Shown here: one piece after another, positions 53,197-63,790 of the stretch
Layout: each line of letters begins with the position of its first letter
Position numbering within the stretch: the stretch's first letter is position 1
Assembly (NCBI GenBank): GCA_944372335.1
Contig: CALVYQ010000004.1
Span: 30,418-94,417, forward strand
Direction: 5' to 3'
Length of the DNA: 64,000 bases
Source of the DNA: an uncultured Clostridia bacterium
GTDB lineage: Bacteria; Bacillota; Clostridia; Christensenellales; UBA1242
Position numbers and translations under genes: made by a program
The notes under the pieces: generated by a model
Databases searched by the model: none
What the model was told of the DNA's origin: nothing
What the model saw: the letters and a program-made list of their open reading frames with translations, nothing else

Positions 53197-56100
53197 ATGA
53201 ACGATAGGGAGAACGAAGAGGAACTTAATAAGCCGATAGAGGGGCAGATGTGCTATGACGAACTCTTGCTTCCTGAAGAGGAAAAGGAGGAGGAAGAACC
53301 TGCACCTATCGTTTTAGACGGTCAAATGGATATTTGGTCGTTGGAAGAGCAAAAAATAGAGGAAGAAAAACAAGAAACGCCAAAAGAAGAAAAGCAAAAT
53401 ATCTTCGACATCGAAAGAGAAGATGGCGAAAAAGAAGAAGACGAAAAACAAGGAACATCAAAAGAAGAGCAAGAAAATATCTCTTATGCTATTGAAAAAG
53501 AAGATGTTTTAGAAGAAAAGGTAAGTGAAAAAATTGAGCCTCTGCTAGAAGAAAAAACAAATTTAGATAGGCAAAAAGAGAAAACAAAGCGGACAATAAA
53601 TCAAATAAAAATAAAAGAATTAAAAAATGAAGCATTAGATTTAGAGGATAAAATCGAAAACTTTGAAGATGACGATGTTTCAGAAGAGAGCCTAAAGGAA
53701 AATTTAGAAGAAGAAAATGAAGATGACAAAATAGATAGTACCGCTGAAAATGAAATTGAAGAAACTGAAGAAATTTCGGACGAGGCAATAAAATTACACG
53801 AGCGGTATGAAGAGAGTCTAAAAAAAGTCGAAAGAAGAGAGAAAATTATGGAAGAAAAAAGTTTTTATGGAGATGGAGGTAACGGAATTATCACTAAGAA
53901 TCTTAGTGATGTTCTTCACGACTCAATGATTCCATACACAGAGCACGTTGTTATGGATAGAGCACTTCCAAGAGTGGAGGACGGGCTTAAGCCTGTTCAA
54001 AGGCGTATCCTTTATTCTATGATGGAACTAGGTTTAACACCGGATAAGCCTTACAGAAAATCGGCAAGAATTGTCGGAGATTGTATGGGTAAATATCACC
54101 CACATGGTGACTCATCAGTCTATGATGCGATGGTGCGTATGTCGCAAGACTTTGTTTTGCGTGCTCCTCTTGTTGATGGGCATGGTAACTTTGGTTCCGT
54201 TGATGGTGACAGTGCGGCTGCCATGCGTTACACAGAAGCTAGAATGACGCCACTTGCACTTGAACTTCTCCGTGACTTAGAAAAGGACACTGTCAAGTGG
54301 AGTTTGAACTTTGATGATACTTTGAAAGAGCCCGATATCTTGCCAGGACGCTTCCCAAATCTTCTTGTAAATGGTGCTTCCGGAATTGCAGTTGGCGTTG
54401 CTACAAACATTCCTCCTCATAATCTTGGTGAGGTTATTGATGGAGTGGTAGCCTATATTAACAAGCCAAACATTACACTCGATGAGATGATGAAGATTAT
54501 TAAAGGCCCAGACTTTCCAACAGGCGGAGAGTTAATCTTTGGTGACGGACTAAGAAGTGCGTATGAAACAGGGAAAGGAAAAATCATCATACGTGCTAAG
54601 GTCGGAATTGAACAAAATGGTGACAAGCAGAGTTTGGTAATTACTGAGCTCCCATATCAAGTAAATAAGGCACTTCTTCTTCAAAAAATTGCCGAGCTTA
54701 AAGAAAAGAATAAAGACAAACTGCAAGATATAAGCGAAATTCGTGATGAGAGTGATAGGTCAGGTATGCGTGCTATCATTCGCTTAAAAAAAGATGCAAA
54801 TGCTAAGAAGATTCTTGCATATCTCTATCAAAACACAAATATGCAGCTTTCCTACGCTATAAACATGGTGGCAATTGCTGGTGGCAAGCCAAAGCAAATG
54901 GGGCTTATGGAGATTATCTCATACTATACAGCTTTTCAGCGTGATGTGGTTGTTCGTAGGACAAAGTATGATTTAGATATTGCAAAAGAGCGTGCTCATA
55001 TTGTGGAAGGGCTTTTGATTGCCATAAAAAATATAGACGCTGTTATTAAGATTATCAAAACTTCTGCAAGCGTTGGCGAGGCAAAAACAAGGCTTCGTGC
55101 TAAGTTTGCATTAAGTGAGAAACAAGCTCAGGCAATACTCGATATGCGTCTTTCAAGGTTGGTAAATTTGGAAGTAAATAAACTTCAACAAGAGCTTAAA
55201 GACTTAAAAGCTAAGATTAAGGAATACGAGGCAATTTTGGCATCAAAGAAACGCCAGCTTGAAGTGGTTAAGACGGAAATACTTGAAATTAAGCGTAGAT
55301 TTAACAATCCACGCCGTAGCCATGAAACTAAGAGTGATGATATAGTTCTGAAAAAGGTGGAAGAAGAGGAGACTGTTAAAGAATATTATCTTCTCTTGAC
55401 TGCCGGCAAAACGCTTAAAAAGGTCAATATGTCAAGCTATATGAAGTCAACAAGAACCGTAGGTGACGGCTCGACACTTTTTGATATTGTCACTCAGAAA
55501 TTAAAAGTTAAGTCTAATGACCAAGTTTTAATTTTGACGGAAAAAGGTAACTGTTTAAAGGCGAATGTCGCACAAATAGCTGAATGTAAGTGGAGAGACA
55601 AGGGCGTGACGCTAAAGCAGGTTGATAGAAGCGTAGATATTATGGAAACACCGGTGAGCATAGTTCCTGTTGCAAGCCAAGAGATTTTGATGATGACGAA
55701 AAAAGGTATGATAAAGCGTATGAAAAATGAGGACGCTGTGATTACTAAGTCATATTATCAAGTTTTAAAAGTGGCAGAAGATGACAAACTCATAAATGCC
55801 GAACTTGACGAAAAAGGAAAAAATATCTTGATGTTTACTGCTCATGGTTATACTGTCAACTTCGATAAAAATGAAGTTCCTCTTCAAGGTCGCATTTCTG
55901 GTGGCGTTATGGGTGTTAACCTTGAAAAAGACGACTATGTGGTTCTTGCTTGCCAAAATCATTTCGACAGTGTTATGGTAATCACCGACAATGGCTACGT
56001 CAAGAGGCTTAGCACCGTTCAAATTCCAACTTGTGCTCGCTATAGAAAAGGTGTAAAATATATTAACTTTACTTCAGGAGGAAAGAGCGTGTTGTATGTC

Positions 56101-56247
56101 GGCGGAAGCGATAAAGCAGTTATTGACCAAGGCTTGAAGTTTAAAATTGTTGAGGCAAAGAAGGTAAAATTAAGTAGCGACCGCTTGGCTAGTGGCGTGC
56201 AAGAGGTTAAGAATAAAGTGCTTGATGTTTATAGTTTTGTTGATTAA
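53197..56247 (+). CDS. parC: Type IIA DNA topoisomerase subunit A with a 217-residue acidic extension
   Basis: DNA-cleaving subunit. The normal part starts around residue 218 and has [20 protein letters not shown], the catalytic Tyr 345 in MRYTEARM, the tower and coiled-coil domains ([22 protein letters not shown]), and a beta-pinwheel C-terminal domain. In that last domain the gyrase-specific box is not canonical ([11 protein letters not shown]). Residues 1-217 are an unusual Glu/Lys/Asp-rich extension. GATGAGGTAAC places the start at ATG 53197, directly after subunit B. An internal ATG at 53848 ([11 protein letters not shown]), with a GAAGAGAGAAAA context, would give a standard protein with the Tyr at 128. 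Confidence 0.9.
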
Positions 56248-57948: not shown

Positions 57949-58665
57949 ATGAAGAATGTGCTTTTGATTGATAGTGGCTCAGGCGGTGTCAACATTCTCA
58001 AAGAGTGCGTAAAGATTTGTCCATATTGTAACTATCTTCTTTTTTGCGACCATAAAAATCTGCCCTATGGAGCAAAATCTAAGAAAGAGCTAGTAGAAAT
58101 AACTGAAAAAAATCTTTTAAAGATAGGTAATTTTTTTAAGTTTGATATTGTCATCTTCGCTTGCAACACCTTGACCGCCACAGTGATCGATGAGATGCGT
58201 GAAATATTTTGCGACATCGATTTTATCGGCACTGTTCCTGCAATTAAGCCGGCTCTTACTGAGTTTAAAGAAAGAGATATTCTTTTGATTGCCACAAAAA
58301 CAACACTTGAAAATAATAAACTTATTGCTAAATATAAAAATAGTGGAATTAAATTTAAGGCACTCAATAAACTTGCTCCTTTAATTGATGAAAATTTAGA
58401 TGAGATTGAGAAAATTTATCCTTATTTAAAAAAGGAGCTTAAAGGAAATTTTAAGGCAATAGTTCTAGGTTGCACTCACTATATGGCGGTTGAAAATTTA
58501 TTAAAGGATATATATAAAGATGCAAAAATTTTCGATAGTTCAAATGGTGTGGCAAGACGCTTACTTAGTTTTGTGCAAGAGAGAAATTTTGGCTATCAAG
58601 TGCAGATTTACTGTGAAGATGACAAAATGCGGGCGAAATTTTGGTGGTACTATTTAAATAGATAA
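57949..58665 (+). CDS. murI: Glutamate racemase
   Basis: Makes D-glutamate for peptidoglycan. The 238-residue protein has DSGSGGVN at the start, the first catalytic Cys in FACNTLTA and the second in LGCTHYM, both intact. It is slightly shorter than typical 260-residue MurI. No ribosome site precedes ATG 57949; a TATATT (57937-57942) lies so close that the transcript may start at the ATG. Confidence 0.9.
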   Translation: MKNVLLIDSGSGGVNILKECVKICPYCNYLLFCDHKNLPYGAKSKKELVEITEKNLLKIGNFFKFDIVIFACNTLTATVIDEMREIFCDIDFIGTVPAIKPALTEFKERDILLIATKTTLENNKLIAKYKNSGIKFKALNKLAPLIDENLDEIEKIYPYLKKELKGNFKAIVLGCTHYMAVENLLKDIYKDAKIFDSSNGVARRLLSFVQERNFGYQVQIYCEDDKMRAKFWWYYLNR

Positions 58666-58730: not shown

Positions 58731-58747
58731 ATAAAAAGAGGTGAAAG

Positions 58748-59626
58748 ATGAAAGATTGTCTTTTTTGTAAAATTATTAAGGGCGAAGTGCCATCATATAA
58801 AATCTATGAAGATGATAATGTCTATGCATTTTTGGATATTGCAAATGATGTCTATGGACACACGCTGGTTATTCCTAAAAAGCACTATGACAACATGATG
58901 GACTGCCCAGATAGAACACTTGGAAAAATTATCGCAAGTGTTAAAAAAATCGGCAATCACTTTGTGAGTGATTGTGGCTTTGAGGGATACAACATATTTA
59001 ACAATAACGGCAAAAGTGCAGAACAGGCGGTTATGCATCTACATTTTCATATCTTTCCTCGCAAGTCTGATGATGGAGTGAAGATAAGTCAAGACTTCGG
59101 CAAACAAACAAAGGAACTTGAAGAAATTGCGAAAGAACTTTATTTTGAAAATGAAAAGATTAATGCTATTGATTATAGTAAGTATGCAGAAGATTGCGAT
59201 GTATTATACACCGATGGTGCTTGCTCAGGAAATCCGGGCAAGGGTGGCTATGGTGGCATTTTTATTAAGTCTAACGGACAAGCAGAGGAATTTTCTGGCG
59301 GTGATGATGACACAACCAACAACCGTATGGAAATTATGGCGGTGATTATTGGCTTAGAAAAGGCAGAGGAGAATTCTCGTGTGAAGGTCTATAGTGATAG
59401 TGCGTATGTTGTCAATGCTTTCAATCAAAATTGGCTCGCTAATTGGAAAAAGAATGGCTGGCTAACAGCAGGTGGTGGCGAAGTTTTAAATGTTGACCTT
59501 TGGAAAGAACTTTCAGATTTAGTTGACAAAAGAGACGTTGAGTTTGTTAAGGTGAAAGGACACGCCGATAATACCTTAAACAACCGATGCGATGCTCTTG
59601 CCACTTCATATTATAAGGAAAATTAA
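58748..59626 (+). CDS. Fusion of a HIT-family nucleotide hydrolase and ribonuclease HI
   Basis: A 292-residue protein with two complete enzymes. Residues 1-135 are a HIT domain of the Hint/HinT type: CLFCKIIKGEVPSYKIYEDD, then GHTLVIPKKHYDN and the catalytic HLHFH at residues 97-101. Residues 150-292 are RNase HI with YTDGACSGNPG (Asp 156), NNRMEIMAV (Glu 195), VYSDSAYVV (Asp 217) and the KGHADN...NNRCDALA end (Asp 282). All four catalytic acids are present. There is no frameshift or internal stop between the two. HIT proteins cleave nucleoside phosphoramidates and dinucleotides; RNase HI cuts RNA in RNA-DNA hybrids. The join suggests coupled removal of RNA and its nucleotide adducts, which is inference. 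Confidence 0.93.
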   Translation: MKDCLFCKIIKGEVPSYKIYEDDNVYAFLDIANDVYGHTLVIPKKHYDNMMDCPDRTLGKIIASVKKIGNHFVSDCGFEGYNIFNNNGKSAEQAVMHLHFHIFPRKSDDGVKISQDFGKQTKELEEIAKELYFENEKINAIDYSKYAEDCDVLYTDGACSGNPGKGGYGGIFIKSNGQAEEFSGGDDDTTNNRMEIMAVIIGLEKAEENSRVKVYSDSAYVVNAFNQNWLANWKKNGWLTAGGGEVLNVDLWKELSDLVDKRDVEFVKVKGHADNTLNNRCDALATSYYKEN

Positions 59627-60219: not shown

Positions 60220-60255
60220 AAAAAAAGAGAATTGATTTTATTTTTTCAATTCTCT
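60220..60255 (-). terminator. Terminator of the element's int-bro operon
   Basis: AGAGAATTGA (60226-60235) and TCAATTCTCT (60246-60255) are perfect complements; six or more T follow on the minus strand. It overlaps the stop codon of the BRO-type gene. Confidence 0.8.
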
Positions 60256-61088
60256 TCATCTTCATTATTGTTCTTTATCTCTAATAAATCTTTGTCTTGT
60301 GCATTCAGTGGGGAAATGATTGATTTGCCCAGTTCCTTTTCTATATCTTCTCTTGTATTTCTTGCTATGTTTCCACCTCTTCTTGCTATAGATTTATTTT
60401 CACTAAAACTTTGTGGATTGCTTTCTTTTGATATTGCTGTTGTCATTACTTCTGCAAGTTGATTTAGTGTCAGTTCAATATCTGTCATATTATCTCTTAA
60501 ATTTTCTTTCTTTAAGTTTTTTACTGCTTTATATTCCTTTACTGACATTCCAGACCAAGCCTTTGTCATTTCATCTGTGAGTATTGCAAATTCTAGGCTT
60601 GTTTTAACTCCTTTGTCTTTCCATTCATCTGTCAATTTTTTTCTTATTTCTATTCCTTTTAGCCTTTCTGTTATCCATCCTTCAGTGTAGCCTTTTGCTC
60701 TATATAGTTCAACACCTCTTTCGAATGCTTTTTGTGGGTCTGCTATTTCGTCTAGGCGGTCATTTCCAATCTGTGCAAGCCACATCTTAAATGGTTCTGC
60801 TTTTGGGCTAGGAATTGATTGTATAAGCCTTAAAATGCCTTTTGTGTTTAATACATCGGTTAAGTAATGTTTTCCATCAGAAGATTGCAATTTCAGTTGT
60901 CCCACATCTTGGGACAACTGACTTCCTTCTTGTTTTAATTTTGTTTTTAATGCGTTCCAATATTTGCGTGGGCGAGGGCTATCAGTTAGAACTGCTATCA
61001 CATCAACCACACTGAAATACCAATCTTCTTCATTTGCATTCCATTGTGTCCTTATTTTCTTTTCTTCAAATACTTTTATGTTTGACAT
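60246..61088 (-). CDS. BRO/DinD-type phage antirepressor-like protein
   Basis: A 280-residue protein with an N-terminal Bro-N domain (residues 5-110: VFEEKKIRTQWNANEEDWYF, SVVDVIAVLTDS, YWNALKTKLKQEG, LRLIQSIPSPKAEPFKMWLA). A helical C-terminal part follows, with GKSIISPLNA near the end. This layout matches BRO-family proteins and DinD-like (DNA-damage-induced) relatives found on prophages and integrative elements, thought to act as DNA-binding switches. ATG 61088 has AAAAAGGAGAAAG. It is the last gene of the operon running from the WYL-type regulator through xis and int. Confidence 0.82.
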   Translation of the reverse strand: MSNIKVFEEKKIRTQWNANEEDWYFSVVDVIAVLTDSPRPRKYWNALKTKLKQEGSQLSQDVGQLKLQSSDGKHYLTDVLNTKGILRLIQSIPSPKAEPFKMWLAQIGNDRLDEIADPQKAFERGVELYRAKGYTEGWITERLKGIEIRKKLTDEWKDKGVKTSLEFAILTDEMTKAWSGMSVKEYKAVKNLKKENLRDNMTDIELTLNQLAEVMTTAISKESNPQSFSENKSIARRGGNIARNTREDIEKELGKSIISPLNAQDKDLLEIKNNNEDEEN

Positions 61089-61145
61089 TTCTTTCTCCTT
61101 TTTTATTATAGCATAAGTTTATTTAAAAACCTATTGTTTATCATA

Positions 61146-62588
61146 TTATGCAATAAATAAAGAATCGACTTTATTAACAGACTCGAATCCACTTTGTTTT
61201 ATGTAGTGTGCATAAGTCTTTAAAGTTATGTTTGAGTTTGCGTGACCAACCCATTTAGATACAGTTATAATAGGTATATTTGCTACAAGGCAAAGAGAGA
61301 TAAATGTGTGACGCAAGTAGTGTATAGTTGTCTTTTTTATATTGAATTGTTTTCTAAATTTATCAAGCCATCCTTTAGGTGTGCAAGGGTGCATATTCCC
61401 ACCTTCAAGACTTATCATTAAATAATCTTCATCATATAGACCTGGTCTTTCGCTTACATAATTATCATACCACTTTTTGTATTCGATAAGATAATTAAGT
61501 GCAGTCTGTGATAGTGGAATTTCTCTCTTTGATGTCTTATTTTTTGTTTTACAAACATATACACCATAAGTAGAATTATATAATCTATCTCTTTCTATCT
61601 TCATTGTCTTTTTTTCAAAATCTATATCTTGCCACCTAAGCCCATTCATTTCACAAGATCTAAGCCCTGTCACTAAAATTAACCCAAAATATATTTTCCA
61701 TCTAATATCACTTACTTTATCAAGACAATCAAGGAAATAGATTGACTCTTCTTTGCTTAGAACCTTATCCTCGTCTAGTTCATCTGCTTCTTCATCTTCT
61801 GGGAATACAAGTTTAATATATTTTGTTGAAGTGTAATTGTCTTCAAGAACTCTATCTCTTACAGCATTATTAAAAATTGTGCTCATAATCCTTTTATATT
61901 TTAAGATTGATTCTCTTTTGTAATGTCTTTCTTTAAAGTCAATGAAAGTAAAATAATCATTCTTTTTTATATGCAATGCTTCACAAATTATATTTACACT
62001 CTTTTCATTGAGTGGTTTACCATTTTCTGCTTCAAGTAATGTTGTTCTAGAAATATTAAACTGACTACAAAAAATATTTTTTGTTTTATATTGTTTTATA
62101 ATTTCATCCCATAAAGATTTTTTTAGATAGATTTTTGGTTTACTAATATCCTTGTTTTGTAGTTTATTATAAAATGCCTTCACCATATCGGGAGTCAATT
62201 TATCAAAGGTTATTTTTTGAAATTCTTGCTCAAATAGATTTATTGCGTCAATAGCCCTATGACAATATGATTTTGATTTGGTTCTTTCTAGTTCTTTAAG
62301 CCATTCTTTTGCATAATCTATAAATCCAACTCCACTTTGTGCTCTTTTTCCATTTAAAATTTCTTCTTGCTCTTTTTTGAATTTATCTTTTTCTTCTCGC
62401 AAGGCTTTCATTATTTCTTTTTTGCCTTTTAGATACTCTGGAACTTTCCAAGTTTTAGATTTTTGCTCAAATTTATTAGTTTTTGGATTTTTAATGCTAC
62501 ATTTTATGCGAAAGGATATTAGATTTCCATTTTTATCATAATTCGCTAAATGATACATTTCGTTTCTATTTTTTCTTAAAGTTTCCAT
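61146..62588 (-). CDS. int: Tyrosine integrase with an inserted XRE-like HTH domain
   Basis: Site-specific recombinase of the element, 480 residues. It has an N-terminal arm-binding part (residues 1-75) and a SAM-like core-binding domain (from about 85). The catalytic domain (about 275-470) carries Arg 310 in VTGLRSCE, the HYLRHTF block, WVGHAN and nucleophile Tyr 459 in LKTYAHY. Residues about 155-215 interrupt the core-binding domain with a Cro/C1-like fold (FCSQFNISRTTLLEAENGKP, VNIICEALHIKKNDYF). ATG 62588 has AAGGATGG upstream; a TTG eight codons earlier lies inside the upstream gene's end. It is the likely agent of insertion at tRNA-Arg. Confidence 0.88.
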   Translation of the reverse strand: METLRKNRNEMYHLANYDKNGNLISFRIKCSIKNPKTNKFEQKSKTWKVPEYLKGKKEIMKALREEKDKFKKEQEEILNGKRAQSGVGFIDYAKEWLKELERTKSKSYCHRAIDAINLFEQEFQKITFDKLTPDMVKAFYNKLQNKDISKPKIYLKKSLWDEIIKQYKTKNIFCSQFNISRTTLLEAENGKPLNEKSVNIICEALHIKKNDYFTFIDFKERHYKRESILKYKRIMSTIFNNAVRDRVLEDNYTSTKYIKLVFPEDEEADELDEDKVLSKEESIYFLDCLDKVSDIRWKIYFGLILVTGLRSCEMNGLRWQDIDFEKKTMKIERDRLYNSTYGVYVCKTKNKTSKREIPLSQTALNYLIEYKKWYDNYVSERPGLYDEDYLMISLEGGNMHPCTPKGWLDKFRKQFNIKKTTIHYLRHTFISLCLVANIPIITVSKWVGHANSNITLKTYAHYIKQSGFESVNKVDSLFIA

Positions 62589-62598
62589 ATAACCATCC

Positions 62599-62856
62599 TT
62601 AATTCTTATCAATATCTTTTAAAGTTTCTTCTACAGAAGGGAATTCTTCTTGTTCGATTTCAAAATCCAAATATTTAAGGAGTTGAAGTAAATTTACATA
62701 AATCTTTGTGCCAGAGTATTTAGCACTTATAGTGCCTTGTCTAATTAATTGTCTTATATAAAACGATGTAACAACTGTTTCAGGGTCATATCTTTTTATA
62801 AATTCCAAGCAACCATCAACAGTTCTTAGCATTGAGATATTCTTTATCTTAATCAT
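62599..62856 (-). CDS. Excisionase-like small DNA-binding protein
   Basis: An 85-residue protein with an HTH_17/MerR-like pattern (TVDGCLEFIKRY...VVTSFYIRQLIRQGTISAKYSGTKIYVNLLQLLKYL), typical of Xis-type proteins that set the direction of integrase. It overlaps the regulator gene by 8 bases and ends 10 bases before int, so all are one operon. The C-terminus is acidic (EEFPSVEETLKDIDKN). Confidence 0.7.
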   Translation of the reverse strand: MIKIKNISMLRTVDGCLEFIKRYDPETVVTSFYIRQLIRQGTISAKYSGTKIYVNLLQLLKYLDFEIEQEEFPSVEETLKDIDKN

Positions 62857-63790
62857 TTTCCTTCTTCTCCTCCTTTTCTTTTTTACGATTTTTTAATCTA
62901 TTTGCGAAATCTTGCTTATGTCTTTGCATCTCTTCTTTTGTAGGGAATATAAAATCGTTTGGGTGCTCTGTTTTTAGTGTTTCTAATACTTCATCGGTAG
63001 TAAACATTGTGCTCATTCTAATATGAAGTGGTGTTTTATCAAATGTTTCATCTTCCAAGACATAATACTTATTTATTTGGTTTAGTGTAAGGAAGTTTGC
63101 TACATTTCCACAATTTGGTGCTCCAACAATACAATATGTGTCTTGGAAAGGTATAAAAGCATATATATTAAATCTTCTAAAAGTCGAATTCACTTTTCCA
63201 TTAGAAAGTTTGCGTTGCAACATAATTGGTCGTCTTTGGTTGATAATTTCAATCATATCTTCTGCAAATAAATTTTTTTGAATATTAAAGTTTATATCCT
63301 TTGAAAAATAAGAATGTTTATTTAAAAACTCTTTTAACTCACTACCAGCAGAATAAGACAGTTTTTCAATAATATTCTTTTTAGCACCATCAGAAGCGAG
63401 CCTTGATTTTCTTAGCATTTGAATTAAAATGTTGATTTCTATGTCATCAAGTCTAAATTCGCCAGGCACTAAAATGTCTTCGTTATCACTTGTTAGATAA
63501 TAGCCATCATAAGGATTGCCTTCAAGTGTGTAGTTAGGCAAGAGATGATTTTTAAACAATCTAATATATTCTTGAATGGTGTCCTTACTAAGTATTACTT
63601 TAAATTTCTCTTTAATTATCTCTAAAATATCTAAAACTTTTAGTGGCTCGTCTTTTGAAGCATCTTCTGTTAGGACTTTATAGACATAAATTGAATAAAA
63701 CTTGGTAAATCTATCTTTTTTGCCTTTTGGAGTTTCTTGGTCATCATAGACATTTTCAAGTATATTTAACTTTGGATTTTTATCTTTCAT
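62849..63790 (-). CDS. WYL-domain-like transcriptional regulator of the element
   Basis: A 313-residue protein. Residues 30-100 look like an HTH (ILEIIKEKFKVILSKDTIQEYIRLFKNHLLPN, then NPYDGYYL). Residues 180-250 resemble a WYL ligand-binding fold (FNIYAFIPFQDTYCIVGAPNCGNVANFLTLNQINKYY). The C-terminal 40 residues are Lys/Glu-rich. It is the first gene of the operon, with AAAGGAGAAAG before ATG 63790, a promoter and a perfect palindrome upstream. It probably represses or activates its own operon; that is inference. Confidence 0.62.
   Translation of the reverse strand: MKDKNPKLNILENVYDDQETPKGKKDRFTKFYSIYVYKVLTEDASKDEPLKVLDILEIIKEKFKVILSKDTIQEYIRLFKNHLLPNYTLEGNPYDGYYLTSDNEDILVPGEFRLDDIEINILIQMLRKSRLASDGAKKNIIEKLSYSAGSELKEFLNKHSYFSKDINFNIQKNLFAEDMIEIINQRRPIMLQRKLSNGKVNSTFRRFNIYAFIPFQDTYCIVGAPNCGNVANFLTLNQINKYYVLEDETFDKTPLHIRMSTMFTTDEVLETLKTEHPNDFIFPTKEEMQRHKQDFANRLKNRKKEKEEKKEND

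Follow-up and report, generated by a model that had tools for sequence, protein, structure and literature searches.

The window analysed in this study (the whole stretch of DNA, 64,000 nucleotides long) contains, on its plus strand, one uninterrupted reading frame in which a HIT domain is followed by a ribonuclease HI (RNase HI) domain, with no stop codon across 292 amino acids. The genome to which it belongs is a 1.2-Mb draft, and the gene is present there as a single copy. The coordinates of the gene, its parts and its upstream neighbor are given in Table 1. Pfam searches and a check of individual residues agree with the sequence-only reading that both enzymes are complete in this frame, with the HLHFH motif and all four RNase H acids. 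The latter are D156, E195, D217 and D282, accompanied by H272, and we take these five residues to be equivalent to D10, E48, D70, D134 and H124 of Escherichia coli RNase HI. The middle histidine of the HIT motif corresponds to H101 of E. coli HinT. A CxxC (residues 4 and 7) lies directly N-terminal of the HIT domain.

Table 1. Positions in the window of the HIT-RNase HI fusion gene, its parts and its upstream neighbor
Feature	Positions	Strand	Remarks
Glutamate racemase-like gene (murI), upstream neighbor	57949..58665	+	TIGR00067, 134.1 bits, just below the cut-off of 146.65
AGAGGTG before the ATG	58737..58743	+	Putative; resembles a ribosome-binding site, as read from the sequence
HIT-RNase HI fusion gene	58748..59626	+	292 aa, ATG to TAA
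HIT domain, residues 12-107	58781..59068	+	Pfam PF01230, E 5.9e-26
HIT catalytic motif HLHFH, residues 97-101	59036..59050	+	H99 is the expected nucleophile, by analogy with H101 of E. coli HinT
Linker, approximately residues 132-150	59141..59197	+	No in-frame ATG, GTG or TTG; low model confidence at 136-138
RNase HI domain, residues 152-287	59201..59608	+	Pfam PF00075, E 2.4e-37; NCBIfam NF001236 above cut-off

The C-terminal part is ribonuclease HI according to an NCBIfam equivalog model (168.3 bits against a cut-off of 160), and NCBIfam HinT models match the HIT half below their cut-offs (95.5 of 130 and 47.7 of 206 bits). A Pfam search of the protein up to E 1 returned HIT, DcpS_C, RNase_H, RVT_3 and one chance-level match, with no zinc finger; Pfam likewise gave no dsRHbd, the N-terminus being HIT. 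No acid phosphatase domain was recognized by Pfam or NCBIfam, although NCBIfam NF005567 (RNase H/acid phosphatase) matches the RNase H part weakly. Among solved chains, the best sequence match is the RNase H of PDB 3h08 (C. tepidum RNase H1), and the HIT half matches the HIT proteins 3l7x (E 7.4e-28), 1y23 (E 1.9e-26) and 4egu. Judged by sequence, the HIT half thus appears to be of the Hint kind, its nearest solved or curated relatives being stand-alone HIT/HinT proteins. An AlphaFold2 model built from a 45-sequence alignment has a mean pLDDT of 91.9 and a pTM of 0.56, with residues 136-138 below 50, as for two well-folded domains that have no fixed mutual arrangement and are joined by a low-confidence linker. 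In a structure search the model matched 3h08_B (E 2.7e-19, rmsd 1.3 Å over 142 columns), which indicates the RNase HI fold; all 50 structure matches listed are RNases H, with 3h08 at the top, so that the assignment of the HIT fold comes from sequence comparison.

Two further regions of the window may be mentioned here. Just downstream of the fusion gene, positions 60246-63790 of the minus strand carry genes for a Bro-N protein and a phage-type integrase together with two more genes, and resemble an integrated element. At positions 53197-56247 lies a DNA gyrase/topoisomerase IV subunit A gene (PF00521 from residue 255) with an E/K-rich N-terminal extension of around 250 amino acids.

The two enzymes are fused into one polypeptide. 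Positions 59150-59200, which the sequence-only reading had singled out for checking, are open in the frame of the gene, and since the linker offers no ATG, GTG or TTG the RNase H half would not easily be started alone. Such a linker, lacking a possible start, occurs in 22 of 49 fused genes (that of the window included), and the other 27 contain at least one. Fifteen other genomes of the genus have the same single frame, with a product 67-86% identical to that of the window, and 33 further genomes of the genus were counted as fused at lower identity. A pattern-based scan of contigs, of which the best 80 of 185 relatives were kept, yielded 17 that cover both domains, all recorded as uncultured Clostridia bacterium apart from one Clostridiales bacterium. 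These 17 public MAG loci (L180-L195 and L203) are identical in DNA to 17 of the genus genomes; 16 of them are free of stops and L194 is split. Because separate assemblies share the frame, a base-call error in the window is ruled out. An assembly or base-calling artefact that joined two genes, which the draft state of the window genome (14 contigs, 85% complete) might have suggested, is refuted by the occurrence of the frame in the 15 other assemblies, and in more at lower identity, and retains a negligible probability.

Of the 112 genomes of the genus that were searched, 102 gave a match and 10 did not. Five of the 102 had one domain in the fetched locus: in G015, G300 and G277 the matches end at contig ends, and in G287 and G258 HIT is absent. 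The remaining 97 genomes have both domains in the locus, as a single frame in 49 (two of which run off the contig end) and as two genes in 48; homologues are thus not always encoded separately. All 48 split pairs are adjacent and on the same strand, with HIT before rnhA, and the gap between them, measured to the nearest start codon, ranges from -4 to 32 nt (median 5). In the fused genes the linker between the ends of the two matches is 9 to 67 residues long.

Outside the genus, no fused frame was found in 24 genomes of other families, and no fusion was confirmed among the matches listed for overlapping samples of 197 genomes of the family, 297 of the order, 398 of the phylum and 391 of the class, where a diverged fusion appearing as two matches could escape. 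The spread of the domain pair is accordingly confined, among these listed matches, to one genus. Several candidates were rejected. The fusion suggested in G185 by one match (residues 60-286) is a contig-end frame with RNase H alone behind unrelated sequence, and the long frame of L339 is also RNase H behind unrelated sequence. The HIT matches in long frames of G512 and G541 arise because the frame stays open upstream, within another gene; the HIT protein starts at its own ATG. In G067 a flavodoxin-like gene ends a few bases before rnhA, unfused. In four Staphylococcus phage records a tblastn match spans residues 18-285 in one piece; in phage loci H1 and H4 the RNase H is a 151-aa protein, a separate 582-aa frame ends before it, and the HIT alignment is due to chance. 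The sequence-only reading knew of no standard family with this architecture, and no described HIT-RNase H pair was met with in the titles and opening lines of abstracts of the open-license literature; the accessible portions of three papers on RNase H domain combinations (PMC3985635, PMC1950709 and PMC5603734) do not mention a pairing with HIT. The fusion of these two known enzymes is real and lineage-restricted, belonging to a genus of uncultured, small-genome Clostridia.

The number of fusion events was estimated on two trees. The HIT plus RNase H protein tree, comprising 110 rows (96 from the genus and 14 outgroups) and 272 columns, from which G022 was excluded because of its partial HIT, requires six changes between the fused and split states, three of them forced by well-supported branches; bootstrap replicates, which had not fully settled, give 5-6, and a quick protein tree gives five. 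An rpoB match was obtained in 103 of the 112 genomes, of which 97 were used and 91 carry a fused or split label; this independent tree requires seven changes, six of them forced (bootstraps 7-7). From the six and seven changes it follows that fusion of HIT and rnhA has probably been repeated, several times within the genus. The counts themselves do not tell fusion from fission; the split state is inferred to be ancestral because the two genes are unlinked in other families. On the quick protein tree the main fused clade holds the window protein, and G254, G305, G308 and G289/G290/G291 stand apart from it; on the rpoB tree G254, G305, G308 and G289/G290 are again apart, G291 not being on that tree. 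The trees conflict on G034, which the protein tree places with the clade of the window and rpoB with the other fused clade, suggesting transfer or mis-binning. G012, G249 and G295 also fall in the large fused clade on the protein tree and away from it on the rpoB tree. Such conflicts may stem from transfer, mis-binning or errors in the trees, and the independent fusions could then be fewer.

A DegV-family gene clusters with 59 of the loci (32 fused and 27 split), and 58 of the matches lie upstream on the same strand; its identity was established by Pfam (PF02645) in one locus, that of G287, and by similarity in the rest. At the DegV-HIT junction no fusion is seen in any of 57 loci, although the gap is -20 to 40 nt in 32 of them, 16 of which are in frame. 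By comparison, the boundary between HIT and RNase H would seem to tolerate fusion unusually well or to be under selection for it, a single junction being a weak control. The linker of G289 contains two copies of a 14-base repeat inside the coding sequence, and this repeat occurs 20 times in that genome with at most two mismatches, compared with twice for the reversed control.

The HxHxH motif is kept in all 47 split rows, all 14 outgroup rows and 46 of the 49 fused ones. The nucleophile position, H99 of the window protein, is lost in three fused proteins, which read HCH (G020), HCD (G275) and HSE (G293) at the three histidine positions, so that window H101 is also replaced, by D in G275 and by E in G293. 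These HIT domains still match Pfam HIT with 72.7, 70.9 and 43.8 bits, respectively, and no second HIT gene was detected by Pfam in G020, G275 or G293 (99%, 81% and 69% complete). G020 and G275, which group as sisters on both trees, derive from bins with different names, and hence the loss of the nucleophile is not one sequencing error. In E. coli HinT, a change of H101 is reported to lower catalytic efficiency approximately 30,000-fold (PMC3130732, in the part available). A five-residue gap just before the HIT motif is found in G002 and G224 (both split) and in G289-G291 (fused). In two other genomes, G287 and G258 (loci L099 and L100; 99% and 97% complete), a Pfam search found no HIT at all, and rnhA is retained directly after the DegV-family gene. 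The absence of HIT in these two and the loss of the nucleophile in the other three mean that the two halves are separable. To judge from these sequences, parts of the genus can apparently do without catalysis by HIT, and the fold can persist after catalysis is lost.

Selection nevertheless acts on the HIT half of the fused proteins: its median pairwise dN/dS is 0.233 (50 overlapping pairs), which indicates purifying selection, and the value is 0.118 in the nucleophile-less pair G020-G275. Whether fused or split, the genomes show faster evolution of HIT than of RNase H, with divergence ratios of HIT to RNase H of 1.11-1.26 in fused pairs and 1.30-1.72 in split pairs. A relaxation of HIT after fusion was therefore rejected, the lower ratios in fused pairs showing no general decay. 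Every fused row that extends over the catalytic residues of RNase H has them intact.

RNase HII/HIII (PF01351) was not found in the window genome, nor in 69 of the 112 genus genomes, among them 44 of the 72 with a completeness of 90% or more and a contamination of 5% or less; it is present in all 14 control genomes. The absence is commoner among fused genomes (40 of 49) than among split ones (20 of 47), an excess for which shared ancestry can account. Loss of RNase HII as the cause of fusion was rejected, since no association emerges from independent pairs (median p 1), in a test of three pairs on supported branches and six on all branches that has little power. RNase HII is described as the enzyme for single ribonucleotides, and no species without any RNase H is recorded in the available part of the same source (PMC1950709). 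Taken with the missing PF01351, this means that many of these cells may have no RNase H other than the fused protein.

Several known proteins share parts of this architecture. Hint/HIT proteins (E. coli HinT, 3l7x and 1y23) have the same HIT domain and HxHxH motif, but their chains consist of HIT alone, whereas the window protein goes on beyond its HIT domain into RNase HI. Substrate choice and function of E. coli HinT are affected by its C-terminus, as stated in an excerpt of PMC3130732. Proteins of the Hint branch are homodimers that have phosphoramidase activity. RNase HI of E. coli (rnhA) and of C. tepidum (3h08) agrees with the window protein in catalytic residues, fold and equivalog score, and lacks its N-terminal enzyme domain. 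An added domain is likewise seen on the bacterial RNase HI with dsRHbd, and Streptomyces coelicolor SCO2299 (RNase H/acid phosphatase) is likewise an RNase H fused to an enzyme (both from the accessible text of PMC1950709). However, dsRHbd is a nucleic-acid-binding domain and the partner in SCO2299 is a phosphatase with no HIT, while in the window protein the added domain is HIT. Aprataxin has the active site of the HIT superfamily in common with the window protein, but it consists of HIT plus a C-terminal zinc finger (PMC4499129, as far as its available text goes), of which the window protein shows no trace in the Pfam search.

The reading that we prefer, with a probability of about 0.65, is that two housekeeping enzymes encoded in one operon have come to reside on one flexible chain as a genuine single polypeptide. 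Hint-type HIT and rnhA genes would have come to adjoin in the genus, often after the DegV-family gene, and the boundary between the abutting genes would then have been lost, probably several times, to give the joined frame. The domains would remain largely independent on their tether, each in its usual role, namely hydrolysis of nucleotide adducts by HIT and removal of RNA from RNA-DNA hybrids by RNase HI. Any gain from the fusion would consist in co-expression, stability or dimerization through HIT, not in a joint reaction. Some points bear against this account. Repeated fusion here and none at the DegV-HIT junction could reflect selection for the tether instead of accident, HIT is still under purifying selection in fused proteins, even where the nucleophile is gone, and the conflicts between the two trees leave room for fewer separate fusions. 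It is conceivable, but on balance doubtful, that the HIT half is now a non-catalytic helper of RNase HI that dimerizes it or, like dsRHbd, holds nucleotides or the hybrid. The three nucleophile-less proteins, with their fused, Pfam-matching HIT and no second HIT gene, agree with such a role, as do the dN/dS of G020-G275, the intact RNase H residues and the homodimeric nature of Hint proteins (PMC3130732, same excerpt). Nonetheless, the 46 fused proteins with all three histidines include those of the separate fusions G254, G305, G308 and G289-G291, and HIT outpaces RNase H in divergence whether fused or split.

The sequence-only reading had gone further and proposed that, in DNA repair or replication, a single enzyme could clean away RNA as well as 5'-adenylated ends, with HIT acting like aprataxin. 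Aprataxin does correct abortive ligation arising in ribonucleotide excision repair (PMC6043908, in its available part), and the fusion may be the sole RNase H of the window genome and of the many fused genomes in which RNase HII/HIII was not found. Even so, this coupling is highly improbable and found no support in the comparison: the HIT half is Hint-like with no zinc-finger match, three of 49 fused proteins have lost the nucleophile, two genomes keep rnhA and have no HIT, and RNase HII is missing from 20 of the 47 split genomes too, without association on the independent pairs (a test of little power). In G512 and G541, two genomes of a different family within the order, HIT is preceded by a gene that we take to be methylthiotransferase-like, which is not a known repair gene. 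We also consider it unlikely, though less so than the aprataxin-like coupling, that in this genus, many of whose species have no RNase HII, the sole RNase H of the cell has acquired HIT several times as a functional component, one that either clears nucleotide adducts from ends exposed by RNase HI or, once the nucleophile is gone, serves as a binding or dimerizing module that sets the specificity of RNase HI.

The reason for the conservation of Hint has been called a mystery despite its very wide spread (PMC3130732, as excerpted). A genus in which HIT is fused in around half of the genomes, nucleophile-less in three and missing in two is a natural series on the role of HIT, and the same series bears on whether HIT touches RNA-DNA hybrids. 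One gene pair has seemingly been fused several times within this genus, with split relatives available for comparison, and the points of most interest are what makes this pair so prone to fusion and what keeps a nucleophile-less HIT in place.

RNase HI is joined to other partners as well, so that the identity of a partner is a weaker guide to function. Two RNases HI of genus g57 (G117 and G156; L040 1087-1971 and L045 1147-2016) have an unrelated N-terminal part of around 140 amino acids without a Pfam match, and further g57 genomes show similar frame lengths. In G767 (L338 287-1162), a single frame of 291 aa joins TrmO_N to RNase HI. In genomes of f185, f207 and f227, RNase HI matches lie in open frames of approximately 340-435 codons, possibly representing further N-terminal additions.
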